Source of the DNA: an uncultured bacterium
GTDB lineage: Bacteria > Bacillota_I > Bacilli_A > RF39 > UBA660
Direction: 5' to 3'
Assembly (NCBI GenBank): GCA_900314465.1
Contig: OMVK01000025.1
Location: forward strand, 1 to 33,163
DNA: 33,163 nt
The translations under genes and the position numbers were made by a program. This document shows positions 2,932 to 25,836 of this stretch, in pieces. Every line of letters starts with the position of its first letter. Position 1 is the first letter of the stretch. The notes below the pieces were generated by a model. That model was not told the origin of the DNA, made no database searches, and saw nothing but the letters and a program-made list of their open reading frames with translations.

Positions 2932-4086
2932 TTATCTACTATGCACAGAAGAATTTTCTAAATTTTCTTCTATGTAATATTCATTTAAATTATTTTGGTT
3001 ATCTCTAACCTTTATCTTATGAATCTTTCCTAAAAGAACAAATCTTTCATTATTAGTTTCATAAGAACATGTTACTAATGTTATAAATTTATCATCTTGA
3101 TTAAATTCATAATCATCATTAACAAATCTTCCTTGATTTTTAGCATCTGTAATAAACTCATTTACAAATGTCTCTTTATCCTCTTGTGAATCGAAGTTAC
3201 CAACATTTAATAAGCTTCTATCAGAACCAGAAATAGTTCTGCCAGCAATGAATTCTATCTCATAGCCATAGCCATCATCTGTATAAATTATTCCTTGTTT
3301 ATTTGCTTCGCCATATTCATCAGACTTCCAATTTGAAAGTTTTCCAAACATTGCTCCACTTTTCATATTATGACCATATATTATAGTATTATCACTGATT
3401 TTTGAAAATGGCTCATCAAGATCTTTATTATCAGGTGCAATAAATATTGAACCTTCTGTACTCTTATTACCATTGAAATCATTATGTAAGCAATAATTCT
3501 CGGCTGCTGTTAATATTTTTGTCTCAATATCATCACCAGTACCATAATTTGCAATAACTTCTTTATCAGAAAATTTCTCACTATTCATATCCGGATGAAC
3601 AACTGCATAATTGATATCAGTATTTGGTATTGTGATCCATGCTGTTTCACTTGAATAATCTATAGTTAAATTTTTTAAATACTCTGGTGTAATATCACTA
3701 TTAAATTCATATCCTTCATCATATAATGATGTATCAATTACTTCGTGTTTTTCTTCAACAGTAGGTTCTTCTTGCTTTTCAGTATTTTCACTATTACTTG
3801 CATCTTCGTAATAACTTGCCTCATTTGTTGGTTCTTCACTTGCAATTTTTGATGCTTCACTTGCATCTTTCATTGCTTCTTGTTGTTCAAATTTAGATTT
3901 TAAATCATCAACTAGGCCATAATCATAAGCACCCTTTGATGCAACTACCAATATAGCAATCAACGCAGCAATTTTTTTCCCGGCTTTTAATCTTTTAGCA
4001 CGTACAATCTTATGTTGATTTTTTAAAAATATTTGCTTGCATCTTTCATCAGGGTCTTGAATATTGTTACTTGAATATCTACTCAT
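2932..4086 (-). CDS. Class B sortase
   Basis: Sortases cut surface proteins at a C-terminal signal and join them to the cell wall. The catalytic residues are visible: His239 in YGHNM, Cys340 in TLVTCSY and Arg348 in ERFVLLGKI. The spacing and the TCSY.....R pattern are those of class B (SrtB). A cytoplasmic basic N-terminus is followed by a membrane helix at about 37-52, then an acidic linker of about 80 residues before the catalytic domain (about 130-360), so the enzyme is longer than typical SrtB. The longest frame starts at 4128 without a ribosome site; the ATG at 4086 follows a GGG-rich stretch and gives 384 residues. The gene heads a two-gene operon with its probable substrate. Subclass within B is not resolved. 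Confidence 0.88.
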   Translation of the reverse strand: MSRYSSNNIQDPDERCKQIFLKNQHKIVRAKRLKAGKKIAALIAILVVASKGAYDYGLVDDLKSKFEQQEAMKDASEASKIASEEPTNEASYYEDASNSENTEKQEEPTVEEKHEVIDTSLYDEGYEFNSDITPEYLKNLTIDYSSETAWITIPNTDINYAVVHPDMNSEKFSDKEVIANYGTGDDIETKILTAAENYCLHNDFNGNKSTEGSIFIAPDNKDLDEPFSKISDNTIIYGHNMKSGAMFGKLSNWKSDEYGEANKQGIIYTDDGYGYEIEFIAGRTISGSDRSLLNVGNFDSQEDKETFVNEFITDAKNQGRFVNDDYEFNQDDKFITLVTCSYETNNERFVLLGKIHKIKVRDNQNNLNEYYIEENLENSSVHSR

Positions 4087-4196
4087 AATATCAACCCATT
4101 CCCTTTTATTCTTCTTCAAACAAATCATACATATTTGCTTAGTAATTAACTAAACATATACTAACACAAACCATTAATTCCTTTGAATTGCCTAAT

Positions 4197-16124: not shown

Positions 16125-16157
16125 ATAAAAGAAGAATCTTTTTTATTAAGACTCTTC
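16125..16157 (-). terminator. Terminator of the VWA-protein gene
   Basis: A 10-bp stem with one G-U pair (16131-16140 with 16148-16157) is followed on the minus strand by TTTTATTTATT. The right arm contains the end of the reading frame. Confidence 0.8.
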
Positions 16158-18983
16158 AAAATATTTAATATCATCTTGTAAAGATAGAGTTATTCTTATT
16201 GGTTCATTTGATTTAGAATAATAATTATTTGCTTTTGTTACACAATTCATTTTATTACATATCATATCAACATATCTTTTTTCACCTGGATAATTATTAT
16301 CATATACACCAATATAATAATGATTAGCATCACTATTATCTTGTACTAAGCTTATTGCGTTGATAGCATGAAGACCATCGCCATCAAATTTAGCAGATAA
16401 AACTGGTACATCTCCTGCTTCGATTCTTGTTTTTAATAAATACAAGAATGTTTTTGGTTTTGTAACATCAGTGTCTTCAGAATTATGTCTTTGTCTAATC
16501 CATAATGAAAAATTTAATGATGAAGCAAGTGATTCTGTCACATCTTGTTTAATAAATCCAGTATAAATAGCGTTTAATATTTGTTTTTCTGAATTTTGGA
16601 TTAAACTACTATCTTGCATCTTATCTTCATTTAATAAAGCATCTTCAGCATTATCATAATTAACTCCCCATCTTTTTATTTGTTCTTTCTTATCTAAAGT
16701 ACTTTTATATGTAGTAAAATCATAGATACCAGAATCTTCCATTTCTTTTCTATATTTATCACTATATTTAAGAGTATCATCTACTACTGTACGATAATTT
16801 TTTGGGATATCTTCATTAAAAGTTTCAAAACCAAAAGTGTTTTTTAAAACATTAGTTTGTAATTTATAATCATATAAATTAGCAAAAGAACTAAAATAAG
16901 TATTATTTAAATTATAGTCATAAGAGTGTTGTTTTCTCGTAAATCCACTACGACCTGTAATCGTTCTTTCAACATCCTTTCCACTTGCACTCATAGGTAA
17001 CTTTTTCGTGTAATATAATTCAGCGATTGTTGCCATACCATAGCATTGTCCACCATCAGATAAATTACTAACAAAATTAGAAAATGAGAAGCCATTTTTA
17101 GTTACAATAAAACCACTATCAGCTATAACTGTTCCATCTACTTTTCCATCGGCATTAGTATCAACTAAGTTATAGTTAATATCAGCACCAACTAGTGAAT
17201 ATATTTCATCTAGGGCAGATGCATCACTTGCATTATAATAATCACATCCTGTACCTTCAGCTATTTCATTTAAATCATCTGTATCAAGATTAGAACCTAA
17301 ACCTATAACACACACTTTAACATCTTTTTTGTTTGCTTTATCAATAATATCTTTTTTGTTTGATGATAATGGATAATAATCAGATGTATCTTTACCATCA
17401 GTCAATAATATTAAATAGTGACCATTATCGTCTTTTGTAAATTCATCAATTCCTTCTTCTAGGGCATTAGTAATATTAGTACCATCATCTACTCTTTCAA
17501 AATCATTTTTAATTGAATCTACAGCTTTTTTAGCATCATCATGATTATCAGTAAATTCTTGTAAGTTTACATAATCTCCACCAAATTCGCTAATACCAAA
17601 ATAATAACTACCTGTAAACATATCAATTAAATTATTAGTTAATGATATTCTTTTAAAATTACTATCATTACCATCAGCACCTGTACTAGTAAAACCTAAA
17701 TCACTTAATTGTTTAGATGTATACATAGAAACAGAATTATCTATAACCATCATAATTTGATTATTAGTAGTCGTTAATACAACATTACTATCACCTAATA
17801 CATATTTAGAGAAATGACTTAAAGTAACTGTTATTACTTTATTTACTTTATCTACAGTAGTTGGTATAGCTTCAAGTTTTTTACTATCTTCATTAAAATA
17901 ATATAATGTTAAATTATCTTCATTTAATTTTTTATTATTAATATCTTCAATATTATATGGAATAGTTACTTTAGCGCTATCTAATTTACCTTCAGTATAG
18001 AAATTATATACTGTATCAAGTAAACCATCCATATTTGAAAAAGTACTATTTTTAAAAGTATTAATAGTTGTATCTACGATATTACCTGTACCTGTTATTT
18101 CAAGTGTAATACCTAAATCTTCATTATTTATATTATATGTTAATTTACGGTCTCCATCTTTTACTCCATCACCAAGTGAATCTTCTTTTAATGGGTCTAG
18201 TCCAAGCCCAATTTCATTAGAATCATTTAAACCATCTGAATCTGTATCAGCTTTTAATGGGTCCGTTTTACTAGTATTTATTTCATAATAATCATCTAGG
18301 CCATCCATATCTGTATCAGATAATTCGAGATTAGTTCCATATGATTTTTCTTCTTTGTTAGTAAGGGAATCATAATCTAAGTCTTCATCTGAATCTTCAT
18401 CTATATTATATTCAAGTGATAACGAATGTGACTTAGAATCAATATCTTTACTAATAACAGTATAAGTTTTACTTATCTTTTGTAATTTATAACTTATATC
18501 AACTCTACATTCACCAAGTGCACTAGTTAAATCCCAGTTTAACTCAGAATCACTAAGTTCACCATTACCACATGTTGTCTTAACTTTTAACTTATCAAGT
18601 TTATCTTCATCAGAGAAATCTATTCCAAGTAAAATATTATTTTGTGTTACATAAGTTAAATTATAATCTTCATAATCTTGATTCCATTTTAAAGTTTCAA
18701 AACCATATAGACTACTATAGGCAATAACAAATACAAGTAATATAACTATACAAGATGTAACTATTATAATTGGTTTCTTATATTTGATTAATATTGGTTT
18801 TATTTTATCAGAAACATCTTTAAATGTAATAGATTTTATATCATCAACTGGTGCTCCTTGATTACTAGTATTTAAATTGGTATTACTAGTATTATTATTT
18901 TCAAACTCTTTTAAATTGGCTCCACAATTGGAACAAAAACCTGACCCCTCTGGTAATTTAGTACCACACTTTGGACAAAACAT
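16146..18983 (-). CDS. Zinc ribbon-TSP3-VWA-papain-like membrane protein
   Basis: A 945-residue mosaic. An N-terminal zinc ribbon (CPKCG...CSNCG, residues 3-21) and a linker precede one membrane helix (about 71-88); the remainder is predicted extracytoplasmic. Asp-rich repeats of thrombospondin type 3 kind (about 205-280; DTDMDGLDD, DTDSDGLND) should bind calcium. A VWA domain (about 405-600) has an intact metal site, Asp-x-Ser-x-Ser in DNSVS and LLTDGKD. A further Ca-loop-like DTNADGKVDG links to a C-terminal region of about 320 residues. There GGQCYGMA (Cys647), GLHAINA (His872) and VYDNNYPG (Asp895) are spaced like a papain-type Cys-His-Asp/Asn triad. That protease or transglutaminase-like assignment is inference. 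The ATG at 18983 gives the usual MFCPKCG opening; a TTG three codons upstream sits too close to the GAAGG site. The gene is monocistronic. Its target is unknown. Confidence 0.78.
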   Translation of the reverse strand: MFCPKCGTKLPEGSGFCSNCGANLKEFENNNTSNTNLNTSNQGAPVDDIKSITFKDVSDKIKPILIKYKKPIIIVTSCIVILLVFVIAYSSLYGFETLKWNQDYEDYNLTYVTQNNILLGIDFSDEDKLDKLKVKTTCGNGELSDSELNWDLTSALGECRVDISYKLQKISKTYTVISKDIDSKSHSLSLEYNIDEDSDEDLDYDSLTNKEEKSYGTNLELSDTDMDGLDDYYEINTSKTDPLKADTDSDGLNDSNEIGLGLDPLKEDSLGDGVKDGDRKLTYNINNEDLGITLEITGTGNIVDTTINTFKNSTFSNMDGLLDTVYNFYTEGKLDSAKVTIPYNIEDINNKKLNEDNLTLYYFNEDSKKLEAIPTTVDKVNKVITVTLSHFSKYVLGDSNVVLTTTNNQIMMVIDNSVSMYTSKQLSDLGFTSTGADGNDSNFKRISLTNNLIDMFTGSYYFGISEFGGDYVNLQEFTDNHDDAKKAVDSIKNDFERVDDGTNITNALEEGIDEFTKDDNGHYLILLTDGKDTSDYYPLSSNKKDIIDKANKKDVKVCVIGLGSNLDTDDLNEIAEGTGCDYYNASDASALDEIYSLVGADINYNLVDTNADGKVDGTVIADSGFIVTKNGFSFSNFVSNLSDGGQCYGMATIAELYYTKKLPMSASGKDVERTITGRSGFTRKQHSYDYNLNNTYFSSFANLYDYKLQTNVLKNTFGFETFNEDIPKNYRTVVDDTLKYSDKYRKEMEDSGIYDFTTYKSTLDKKEQIKRWGVNYDNAEDALLNEDKMQDSSLIQNSEKQILNAIYTGFIKQDVTESLASSLNFSLWIRQRHNSEDTDVTKPKTFLYLLKTRIEAGDVPVLSAKFDGDGLHAINAISLVQDNSDANHYYIGVYDNNYPGEKRYVDMICNKMNCVTKANNYYSKSNEPIRITLSLQDDIKYFEES

Positions 18984-19009
18984 AACTCTCAAACCTTCTC
19001 TATATTGTT

Positions 19010-22490: not shown

Positions 22491-22523
22491 AAGAAAAAGA
22501 AAAAGTAATATTAAATTACTTTT
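22491..22523 (-). terminator. Terminator of the dockerin-cohesin operon
   Basis: A perfect 9-bp stem (22501-22509 with 22515-22523, 5-base loop) is followed on the minus strand by TCTTTTTCTT. The stop codon of the cohesin gene is inside the stem. Confidence 0.85.
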
Positions 22524-23958
22524 CATCATCAATATTAATATCATCATCTAAATAAGAACTTATATCTAAAGTATCATCTTTAACTTTATCTTTCTTTTTA
22601 GAATCTTTTTTATCTTCTTGTTTAGTATCTTTATTATCGTCTATAACATTATCTTTTTTACTACTCTTTTTATTAACTTTTTTATTACCTTTTTTAGCTA
22701 TAAATAATACAAAGAATAATATTACTAATGCTATTAATATATATATTATATACATATATTTTTTAATAGTATTTTTATAAATATTTTCAATATCACCTGT
22801 ATATAAAATAATACTATTAGATATTTTATTTATTAAATAATAATTATCTTCATTAGTTAAGATATTCTTAGCATATATAATACTTAAATTATCATTAATA
22901 TTATATGAATCTATTATTTTATCTTTAAATGTAACAGTACCTTTATTATATATTTTATATATATCATTATTAGGTAATTCTAATGGTAATAAATCTAGGA
23001 TATCTGATGTTATTTCATAATATTCATCTTTGATAGTATCAGAATCATCATCATATATAAATGTTTTAATATTACCATCACTATCTTTTAAACCTATGAT
23101 AGTTAGATTAAGACTATCTGAATGTAATGCAGGTATTTCTGTATCTTGATATGTAACTGTAGTATTTGTAAATGTTTGATAATTAGTTGGTAATTGTGTG
23201 TCTTTTCTTACAAGAGTATAATCTTTGTCTTTAACTGTTACAGTTATTGGATTTAATTCTTTTCTATTAACATTAATAGTATATGTTTTAGTATTACCTT
23301 TTTGTGCTGTTACTACTATTTCAAATTTATTATTACCTTCTTCAAGTGTTTTATCACCAGCACCATCTACTGAAGCATTTGCATTACTTTTACTAGCAAT
23401 AATTTTAATACTAGTTATATCATTTTCTACTTCTAAATTATATTCTAGTGTATCTTTATTAAATTCTGGTGTTAATGTATAACCTTCGATAGATAAACTT
23501 TTTAAATTAGCATCATCTGAATAAGTAGATTCTAATTCTTCTTGAGTCATTATTTTAATATTTTTAGTACTTCCAGTCATTGAAAGTTCTTTAGTATCCC
23601 AATCATATGCGATATATGAATCTATTGATACTTTAGTAGAACCTGATTTTAATGCTTTAAAAGTAAATTTATATGTTTTTGATTTAGTAGAACCATTAGT
23701 TGAATTACCTGCCATTGCTGTTCCACCAGATTCACTATTAGTACTAGTTAATTTCAAATAATTACGATCATAGTTTAAATCAGCTTGCCATGAACCAAGT
23801 GTTGTTGAACTTGAAATAGTTACATTAATAGTTACAGTATTACCAACTACTGCTGATGATGAACCAGATAATGATATCGAACCAGATGCTGCATTTATAA
23901 ATAGAGGAAAAATTAATAGTAATATGCTAAATATTAAATATCTTATTTTTTTGTTCAT
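22516..23958 (-). CDS. Membrane-anchored cohesin/cadherin-like domain protein
   Basis: The 480-residue protein has a signal peptide (about 1-23, ending INAASG). A cohesin-like beta-sandwich follows (about 25-137): GSISLSGSSSAVVGNTVTI... opening, LGSWQADLNYDRNYLKL, then TYKFTFKALKSGSTKVSI. A cadherin-like beta-sandwich module comes next (about 148-233; ANLKSLSIEGYTLTPEF, YNLEVENDITSIKI, TYTINVNRK), then a region of no recognised fold, one membrane helix (about 401-421) and a Lys/Asp-rich cytoplasmic tail of 60 residues. Cohesins bind dockerins, and the gene immediately upstream encodes a dockerin-bearing wall hydrolase, with only 16 bases between them. AAGGAG precedes the ATG. The likely job is to hold dockerin proteins at the membrane surface. 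The cohesin call rests on pattern recognition, so other Ig-like adhesion folds remain possible. Confidence 0.78.
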   Translation of the reverse strand: MNKKIRYLIFSILLLIFPLFINAASGSISLSGSSSAVVGNTVTINVTISSSTTLGSWQADLNYDRNYLKLTSTNSESGGTAMAGNSTNGSTKSKTYKFTFKALKSGSTKVSIDSYIAYDWDTKELSMTGSTKNIKIMTQEELESTYSDDANLKSLSIEGYTLTPEFNKDTLEYNLEVENDITSIKIIASKSNANASVDGAGDKTLEEGNNKFEIVVTAQKGNTKTYTINVNRKELNPITVTVKDKDYTLVRKDTQLPTNYQTFTNTTVTYQDTEIPALHSDSLNLTIIGLKDSDGNIKTFIYDDDSDTIKDEYYEITSDILDLLPLELPNNDIYKIYNKGTVTFKDKIIDSYNINDNLSIIYAKNILTNEDNYYLINKISNSIILYTGDIENIYKNTIKKYMYIIYILIALVILFFVLFIAKKGNKKVNKKSSKKDNVIDDNKDTKQEDKKDSKKKDKVKDDTLDISSYLDDDINIDDEK

Positions 23959-23974
23959 AATTTATATACTCCTT

Positions 23975-25759
23975 TTATTGATTAATTATATATAGTTTTA
24001 AAATACTCTTTTGTACTTGTAGTAAGTCAAGAGCATTTATTTTACCATCTCCTGACGTATCACCAGCTAACATAGCTGAATCGTTTAAACTATTTAAATT
24101 TAATATATTTTTTTGTATTTGTAATAAATCAAGGGCATTTATAATACCATCTCCTGATGTATCACCTTTGATTACTACTTTATACTCTTTAGAACCAGCA
24201 TTACTTGTAACAACTACTTTCATGTTAGTACCAATATTACCAGATGTAACTTCATTATTACCATTATAAACTTTAGTAGTTCCGCCTACTGAATTAATTG
24301 AAGCGATAACATCATTAACTTGTGTTCCTGGATTAATACCATACATATAATCATTTGATAAACGATAACCTGCACCAACTACTAAAGTACTTGGATCAAC
24401 TTTAACTTCTTCAGGCTTATCTTCTTGTTTAGTATTATCATCTTTCTTATCTTCTTGTGCACCATTAGTTTCATTTTTGACATTATTAGTTGTATTACCA
24501 TTATATATAGGTATATAGAATACAAATCCTAAATTTAATAAATTACTATTAGCATATGTTTGATATAAAATCTTACCTTCAGATAATGCTGCTTGTACAT
24601 TAGTCATATATTGATTTACATATAATTGTGATGAGTTGGTTGGATGAACATTAAATTTTTGAAAATAGATTGTATCTTGTCCGCGACTTATAAATCTTTC
24701 ATAAATCCATGAAGCACCACCAGTAACTGCTGTGCCGCGATCTTTATATTGATCTCCTGTTCCACCCCAACCATGAGTTACCGCGTAATTTAGAGCTTTT
24801 TGTGTTATACCACTTCCATCAGAGGCACCAATATTATAAAAGTTATAATAATTATCATAAGATTTACCATTATAAGTATAACCAAATCTAGAAGTATAAT
24901 TGCCGGATACACATGAGTAAAGTTGTCCAGCATAATTACCTGATGTTAGTTTACCATTTCCAAGTTCTTGCTTAATACGAGTAGCAATTGATGTTGGTGA
25001 TAAACCACATGTACCTGCATTATATATTAATTCAGGTAAATAATTTATTTGTTGAACTAAGAAATTATTATTAAATATTTTATTTATTAAAGTTAAATAA
25101 TCAGATTGACTAATATTATTATTGGCTCTTGCTGATTCAAACATAAATATAGCATCTTCGCTTAAGAAATTTAAGGGATTCATATAATAAGCTACTGCTT
25201 CATTAGAGGCACCAGTATAACCTGAATCATAAGATGTACCCGAGCATGATGTATCTTGATAATTAGTCTGTGAAGTTTTTACAATTGAGTTTTTACCACA
25301 AGCTGATTCACGATTAACTGATGTTTGGAAATCAAGGCCAGTATTTACTGCAACAAAAGTCCAACTTGGATGAATATTTTTTAAATTACATAAAGAACTC
25401 CAGTAACTTTCTGGAAAACCAGCGGCACTTAATTCTTTTTCACAAGCACTTTTTGCTTCTTCACTCATATTACTATCATTAATAATAGTTCTTGAATATT
25501 CAGAACAAACATAGGCATCTTGTCCATTATAATCTATCTTATACCAACCAGCACTACATCCACCTTGATCACTTACTAAACTTGTATCTTTTAAAGTATA
25601 ACGAGTTCCACTATTAGATGATGTTAAAATTGAACTATTAGTTGATGGCGATGTTCTTACTCTTACAATATCGCCAGTTATTTCTACATAATTTGTTGCA
25701 AAGACAAAAGAAGGCATTATCAAGACTAATAAAGCAAATATAATATATATCTTTTTCAC
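23975..25759 (-). CDS. Secreted glucosaminidase with SH3b and type I dockerin
   Basis: A signal peptide (KKIYIIFALLVLIMPSFVFA) precedes a bacterial SH3 domain (about 25-90; VRVRTSPSTNSSIL, GWYKIDYNGQDAYV). A LytD-like N-acetylglucosaminidase region follows (about 115-420): LKNIHPSWTFVAVNTGLDF, YYMNPLNFLSEDAIFMFE, and Glu265 in IKQELG as candidate catalytic acid. Then come an acidic linker, a small beta domain (about 455-530) and a C-terminal type I dockerin (about 532-594). The dockerin has two nearly identical F-hand calcium loops, GDTSGDGIINALDLLQ and GDTSGDGKINALDLLQ. The enzyme should cut glycan strands of peptidoglycan. GTG 25759 is preferred because GGGATG lies six bases upstream; the ATG at 25768 abuts that site. 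It is the first gene of the operon with the cohesin protein. Confidence 0.85.
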   Translation of the reverse strand: MKKIYIIFALLVLIMPSFVFATNYVEITGDIVRVRTSPSTNSSILTSSNSGTRYTLKDTSLVSDQGGCSAGWYKIDYNGQDAYVCSEYSRTIINDSNMSEEAKSACEKELSAAGFPESYWSSLCNLKNIHPSWTFVAVNTGLDFQTSVNRESACGKNSIVKTSQTNYQDTSCSGTSYDSGYTGASNEAVAYYMNPLNFLSEDAIFMFESARANNNISQSDYLTLINKIFNNNFLVQQINYLPELIYNAGTCGLSPTSIATRIKQELGNGKLTSGNYAGQLYSCVSGNYTSRFGYTYNGKSYDNYYNFYNIGASDGSGITQKALNYAVTHGWGGTGDQYKDRGTAVTGGASWIYERFISRGQDTIYFQKFNVHPTNSSQLYVNQYMTNVQAALSEGKILYQTYANSNLLNLGFVFYIPIYNGNTTNNVKNETNGAQEDKKDDNTKQEDKPEEVKVDPSTLVVGAGYRLSNDYMYGINPGTQVNDVIASINSVGGTTKVYNGNNEVTSGNIGTNMKVVVTSNAGSKEYKVVIKGDTSGDGIINALDLLQIQKNILNLNSLNDSAMLAGDTSGDGKINALDLLQVQKSILKLYIINQ

Positions 25760-25836
25760 TTGAATCATCCCAATCGTACATATATATTATATTATTATAA
25801 TATATAATCTTCCCGTTTTTTTTACATATTTTACAT

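Follow-up and report, generated by a model that had tools for sequence, protein, structure and literature searches.

How does a freely secreted cell-wall hydrolase stay near the membrane? The question is raised by two adjacent genes in contig OMVK01000025.1 (assembly GCA_900314465.1), from an uncultured gut bacterium of the RF39 lineage; the window analysed here is that entire contig, 33,163 bases. The first gene encodes an autolysin with a dockerin, and the second a membrane-anchored protein (the anchor) with a cohesin. Together they very probably encode a dedicated one-to-one cohesin-dockerin tether for the autolysin, of a non-cellulosomal kind. Computational support for the tether comes from its domain content, the pairing of the two genes, the modelled cohesin, a fixed transmembrane position, and co-evolution of dockerin and cohesin at known interface positions. 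The dockerin would bind the anchor in a calcium-dependent manner, newly made glycan strands may be the target, and positioning may be the purpose. An earlier note had proposed a minimal pair by which a peptidoglycan hydrolase docks at the face of the membrane, and the modelled fold, the conserved pairing, and domain-specific co-evolution at the known interface argue for that proposal.

The dockerin-bearing autolysin

Both genes lie on the minus strand, and the gap between them is exactly 16 bases, as the earlier note had it. The autolysin start needs correction: it is the ATG at 25768, whereas the position first given, 25759, is an in-frame GTG. The features of the gene and of the gap that follows it are:

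23975..25768, minus strand: dockerin-bearing autolysin gene, 597 residues (open reading frame from ATG, domains, orthologues)
25697..25768, minus strand: signal peptide, about residues 1-24 (sequence; N terminus hydrophobic in relatives)
25496..25666, minus strand: bacterial SH3 domain, residues 35-91 (Pfam SH3_3, 33.6 bits)
24509..25456, minus strand: N-acetylglucosaminidase-like catalytic domain of SagB/AtlA type, about residues 105-420 (PDB profile match)
24965..24967, minus strand: Glu268, predicted catalytic acid (aligns with the Glu of "ETG" in AtlA-GL and SagB)
23999..24169, minus strand: type I dockerin, residues 534-590 (Pfam Dockerin_1; PDB 2ccl/1ohz)
24128..24163, minus strand: dockerin calcium loop 1, residues 536-547, DTSGDGIINALD (sequence)
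24026..24061, minus strand: dockerin calcium loop 2, residues 570-581, DTSGDGKINALD (sequence)
23959..23974, minus strand: intergenic gap of 16 bases between the autolysin stop and the anchor ATG, with Shine-Dalgarno AAGGAG at 23969-23974 (flanking genes adjacent and co-directional; sequence)

In the autolysin, a signal peptide and an SH3_3 domain precede the glucosaminidase-like catalytic domain, from which a spacer leads to the C-terminal type I dockerin. In the PDB, a nine-orthologue profile matches the catalytic domain to Staphylococcus aureus AtlA-GL (6fxo, 7.1e-14) and SagB (6u0o, 1.1e-13), and Glu268 is conserved as Glu in all 68 aligned relatives. The NCBIfam SagB model matches at 3.1e-9 with a score of 36.5, which is under its cut-off of 425; thus the autolysin is not SagB itself.

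The dockerin scores 43.3 bits against Dockerin_1 by hmmscan and 47.5 bits in the genome search, where the cut-off is 22.9. It contains two F-hand repeats of about 22 residues, and both loops read DTSGDGxINALD. Calcium ligand positions 1, 3, 5, 9, and 12 are canonical in each loop (D536, S538, D540, N544, and D547; D570, S572, D574, N578, and D581), and the dockerin is probably calcium-loaded. The domains and ligands confirm the earlier description of a secreted SH3-glucosaminidase whose C terminus is a type I dockerin containing a pair of near-identical loops.

The membrane-anchored cohesin protein

The anchor carries three extracellular domains, a single transmembrane helix, and a cytoplasmic tail:

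22516..23958, minus strand: membrane-anchored cohesin protein gene, 480 residues (open reading frame)
23890..23958, minus strand: signal peptide, about residues 1-23 (sequence; Ala23 conserved)
23548..23886, minus strand: cohesin domain, residues 25-137 (Pfam; PDB profile matches; AlphaFold2 and Foldseek)
23260..23505, minus strand: cadherin-like beta sandwich, residues 152-233 (Pfam PF12733, 52.2 bits; found in 58 of 59 relatives)
22774..23253, minus strand: juxtamembrane beta domain without a Pfam name, about residues 236-395 (AlphaFold2 strands, high confidence; conserved across the family)
22696..22758, minus strand: transmembrane helix, about residues 401-421 (hydropathy)
22519..22695, minus strand: charged cytoplasmic tail, residues 422-480, 59 residues (sequence)

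Pfam Cohesin (PF00963) scores 32.7 bits at 23614-23865 in the genome search, against a cut-off of 24.1; hmmscan run with its filters did not list Cohesin for the window's anchor, and 27 of 59 anchor relatives match the family individually (E<=0.01). A profile of all 59 anchors places cohesins at the top of its PDB matches, with 3l8q first (2.5e-7), followed by 2y3n, 5g5d, 1tyj, and NagJ. AlphaFold2 models the three-domain ectodomain with a mean predicted local distance difference test score (pLDDT) of 92 and a predicted template modelling score (pTM) of 0.62, and the best Foldseek matches of this model include the Clostridium perfringens cohesins 2w1n, 2jh2, and 2vo8 and Archaeoglobus fulgidus 2xdh (TMt 0.70-0.73 for 2jh2 and 2vo8). 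By model and by profile, residues 25-137 fold as a cohesin, the outcome for which the earlier note had proposed a structure check. The juxtamembrane domain belongs to no Pfam family, nor did it resemble any known structure recognisably in fold searches.

The transmembrane helix starts at residues 389-417 in most relatives' anchors (median 397), which makes the ectodomain nearly constant in length. The cytoplasmic tail, by contrast, ranges from 2 to 166 residues and is unconserved. With the outside length fixed and the inside length free, a spacer fits better than a signalling receptor, and the idea that the tail could signal inside the cell finds no support.

Conservation of the gene pair

The pairing was tested in two ways. 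The first test used the autolysin as sole query and retrieved 79 loci of relatives, 66 with a clear dockerin, of which 3 stop at a contig edge. In 62 of the 63 clear-dockerin loci with downstream sequence, an anchor gene follows co-directionally within -17 to +20 bases. The transmembrane helix is visible in 61 of these 62 anchors; the remaining one (L083) is cut by a contig end. Loci of two isolates, Pseudoflavonifractor sp. An85 and An44 (L142 and L158), are among those with the pair. The exception, L160, is a Ruminococcus/Oscillospiraceae locus and has a divergent upstream cohesin gene that scores 36.6 bits against Pfam Cohesin and ends in LSDTGG. L128, L133, and L154, from the same groups but with weaker dockerins, also have a divergent upstream cohesin-type gene, a BLAST homologue of that in L160; those of L133 and L154 end in NPQT-type sortase-like signals. 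At L155, no cohesin-type gene lies alongside the autolysin.

In the second test, separate searches for the anchor and for Dockerin_1 were run on 117 genomes, which represent 67 genera of the order. A full-length anchor is present in 84 genomes (85 copies), and in 83 of the 85 a same-strand dockerin ends 14-120 bases upstream (median 38). Chance is excluded, since so many anchors across 84 genomes have a dockerin directly upstream. Most genomes with a full-length anchor have a single dockerin. The two genes thus appear to have stayed side by side in most of an uncultured family of gut bacteria, and the co-occurrence in relatives that the earlier note asked about holds from both directions.

Co-evolution of dockerin and cohesin

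Among 64 non-redundant pairs, dockerin distances and cohesin distances correlate at 0.76. The partial rho is 0.67 when the catalytic, cadherin-like, and juxtamembrane domains are controlled for, a value reached in none of 2000 permutations (permutation maximum 0.28 to 0.33). Partial correlations of the dockerin or the cohesin with the other domains of its own protein are 0 to 0.17, including 0.11 between the dockerin and its own catalytic domain and 0.16 between the cohesin and its own cadherin-like domain. The dockerin-cohesin correlation is 0.55, 0.52, and 0.47 in three subsets.

In the solved Clostridium thermocellum complex, the Ser-Thr contact site corresponds to dockerin positions 10/11 and the Lys-Arg contact site to 17/18 (PMC4728124, which counts dockerin positions from the preceding Gly). 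Dockerin positions 10, 11, 17, 18, and 22 occur in 24 of the 50 strongest dockerin-cohesin column pairs, where 8.5 are expected; with control partners they occur in 6 (cadherin-like), 7 (juxtamembrane), and 9 (catalytic) of the top 50. At the level of sequence columns, dockerin-cohesin covariation is thus concentrated on known dockerin recognition positions.

A locus of the same genus, L083 (its contig matches G004:C91), carries the autolysin and the anchor in one frame, separated by a TAG. This codon was read as Gln, giving a natural dockerin-linker-cohesin chain that was modelled in AlphaFold2 with 17 read-through rows and 18 cohesin rows. The predicted chain has a pLDDT of 90 and, despite a low-confidence linker of about 30 residues, a pTM of 0.78, compared with 0.62 for the three-domain ectodomain; this prediction adds a structural line of evidence for the pairing.

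Other dockerins in the genome and in relatives

The earlier note had suggested that other dockerin proteins share the anchor, a suggestion that the genome does not bear out. Two dockerins exceed the Pfam cut-off, those of the autolysin and of a giant SH3 protein, and there is a single cohesin match genome-wide. The second dockerin forms the C-terminal end of the giant protein (2332 residues; contig C16, L005 222-9232). It has its own membrane-anchored neighbour 13 bases downstream, a 176-residue protein with a signal peptide and a transmembrane segment (SP-TM), and then a 493-residue signal peptide/cadherin-like/transmembrane protein; this three-gene order is repeated in a second genome (G006, L065). 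Tested as a cohesin, the C16 neighbour matches neither Pfam nor a cohesin profile built for this analysis. A third, weak dockerin match on contig C75 (E 0.045) was taken as chance.

Other dockerin proteins in the genus (639-1301 residues) are likewise followed by an SP-TM protein within 1-14 bases. Their position suggests that these neighbours may act as cohesins; this is a positional inference, because they have little or no sequence likeness to cohesins. Within the genome, dockerin positions 10/11 read AL in the autolysin (A545/L546 and A579/L580) and LT/VT in the giant protein, and are alike between the repeats of one dockerin. Such differences between pairs, with similarity within a dockerin, suggest private plugs with dual binding modes.

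In another genome (G007), L062 5684-18381 encodes dockerin proteins of 1301, 1312, and 1272 residues around one 333-residue signal peptide-cadherin-like-transmembrane protein, and the cluster adjoins a two-component system. Large proteins with a dockerin near the N terminus occur at L067, L069, and L080 (G007, G002), with no adjacent anchor seen.

Proposed mechanism and alternative explanations

In the proposed mechanism, the signal peptide would direct export of the autolysin, which would then be free on the outer side of the membrane; its C-terminal type I dockerin would plug into the anchor's only cohesin, the domain most distant from the membrane. The nearly constant-length ectodomain, made up of the cohesin, cadherin-like, and juxtamembrane domains, would extend from the membrane, held by one transmembrane helix. 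This non-covalent docking would hold the glucosaminidase at a defined height over the membrane, in the zone of nascent peptidoglycan.

Some points weigh against this mechanism. The membrane-proximal site of action is read from two things only, the topology and the likeness to SagB, and AlphaFold2 training included cohesin-dockerin complexes. In addition, Lachnospiraceae autolysins at L132, L137, and L159 lack a dockerin yet lie beside a cohesin-like plus cadherin-like gene, so the neighbour may act beyond dockerin docking or may have had its role first. These three autolysins have a C-terminal cadherin-like domain where the dockerin would be.

The alternative that survives best, although it is unlikely, is that the two proteins bind but the anchor mainly regulates or chaperones the autolysin, inhibiting or orienting its active site, with the tail perhaps reporting binding to the cell interior. 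SpdC has been described as a SagB scaffold that orients the active site of SagB (PMC10581084), and the conserved juxtamembrane domain could touch the enzyme. However, a tail so variable in length and sequence speaks against reporting, and the partial correlation between the juxtamembrane and catalytic domains is 0.2, much weaker than that between dockerin and cohesin.

It is improbable that the anchor is a general scaffoldin on which several dockerin proteins dock, as in a miniature cellulosome. Some relatives encode up to nine dockerin proteins, and the L062 cluster has three large ones surrounding one anchor gene. Each anchor nevertheless contains one cohesin, and most genomes with a full-length anchor encode one dockerin to match; in the window's genome, the only other dockerin has its own SP-TM neighbour and differs from the autolysin at positions 10/11.

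The notion that residues 25-137 are another Ig-like adhesion module, with the dockerin binding elsewhere and the adjacency being that of an old operon, draws on the borderline Pfam cohesin scores, the hmmscan miss, the neighbour kept in the three dockerin-less relatives, and a shorter domain with little cohesin likeness in the anchors of L117, L123, and G006, but it is very improbable given that cohesins lead the profile matches in the PDB as well as the fold matches and that dockerin-cohesin covariation stands far above that of other domain pairs of the operon, at known contact positions.

The dedicated tether remains the preferred explanation. A broader and more tentative idea, for which the odds are somewhat less than even, is that this family of reduced-genome gut Bacilli generally relies on private pairs to set individual surface enzymes at a fixed height above the membrane, with several mutually specific plugs per cell and the constant ectodomain serving as the autolysin's ruler. 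If private pairs are general, a main use of cohesin-dockerin pairing in these bacteria would be to display proteins at the surface and wall, and not to digest cellulose.

Relation to known systems

To our knowledge, cohesin-dockerin pairs have been studied almost wholly as parts of cellulosomes. The Pfam genome search found one cohesin match and no multi-cohesin scaffoldin, and the system is therefore not a cellulosome. Cellulosomal type I pairs of C. thermocellum and Ruminococcus flavefaciens are alike in their two F-hand repeats, calcium positions, cohesin fold, and covarying recognition positions (PMC4728124). They differ from the present pair, which has one cohesin, one dockerin, adjacent genes, a transmembrane-helix anchor, and the cell's own wall hydrolase as cargo; no carbohydrate-binding module or surface-layer homology domain was found here.

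The nearest solved folds to the anchor's N-terminal domain are non-cellulosomal, namely the cohesins of C. perfringens glycoside hydrolases (2jh2, 2vo8, and 2w1n) and A. fulgidus 2xdh. In those C. perfringens proteins the cohesin is part of the hydrolase, whereas here it belongs to a separate membrane protein dedicated to one enzyme. Proteins termed "nonSLH-anchoring scaffoldins" share the layout of a single cohesin and a C-terminal transmembrane helix, and their partners are reported as unclear in some species (PMC11557425); here, the partner would be the adjacent autolysin, and the pairing is family-wide. Ruminococcus cellulosomes include dockerin-bearing cell-wall hydrolases, according to work cited in PMC6403190. 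In those cellulosomes, the peptidoglycan hydrolases join a scaffoldin alongside plant-wall enzymes, in contrast to the private membrane anchor and absence of a cellulosome here.

The closest functional likeness is to S. aureus, in which SpdC holds SagB in a peptidoglycan release complex (PMC10581084). In both cases a membrane protein holds, or here would hold, a related glucosaminidase domain close to the membrane as its partner. SagB itself is membrane-associated and has no dockerin, and SpdC, being homologous to CAAX proteases, has no relationship to the single-transmembrane cohesin protein described here. The tether would work like SagB-SpdC but is no member of that system, because the partner proteins are unrelated.

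Literature searches found nothing joining dockerins with RF39 and nothing on non-cellulosomal, membrane-anchored cohesin-dockerin systems with a cell-wall hydrolase. A dedicated, family-conserved pair of an adjacent cohesin anchor and a dockerin hydrolase outside a cellulosome was not found in the open-licence papers searched. The plug seems to serve the growth of the cell's own wall in small-genome, walled gut bacteria, most of whose sampled family genomes contain the pair, and would explain how a freely secreted wall hydrolase stays near the membrane. For some orphan single-cohesin membrane proteins in the literature, the pair points to a likely kind of partner. The more than 80 matched pairs form a large natural set from which dockerin-cohesin specificity could be learned, and they could supply orthogonal plugs to display engineering.

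Genome context

The host genome comprises 1.15 Mb in 87 contigs and is 94% complete. A wall-less host is ruled out by the penicillin-binding protein transpeptidase domains that the genome encodes, and a missing sortase as the reason for a transmembrane tether is ruled out by six sortase matches, one of them inside the window. Thus, the host is walled, and its transmembrane tether is no stand-in for an absent sortase. Within the window, a protein of 398 residues with a sortase domain is encoded at 2932-4128 on the minus strand, and a protein of 948 residues with a VWA domain and a zinc ribbon at 16146-18992, also on the minus strand.

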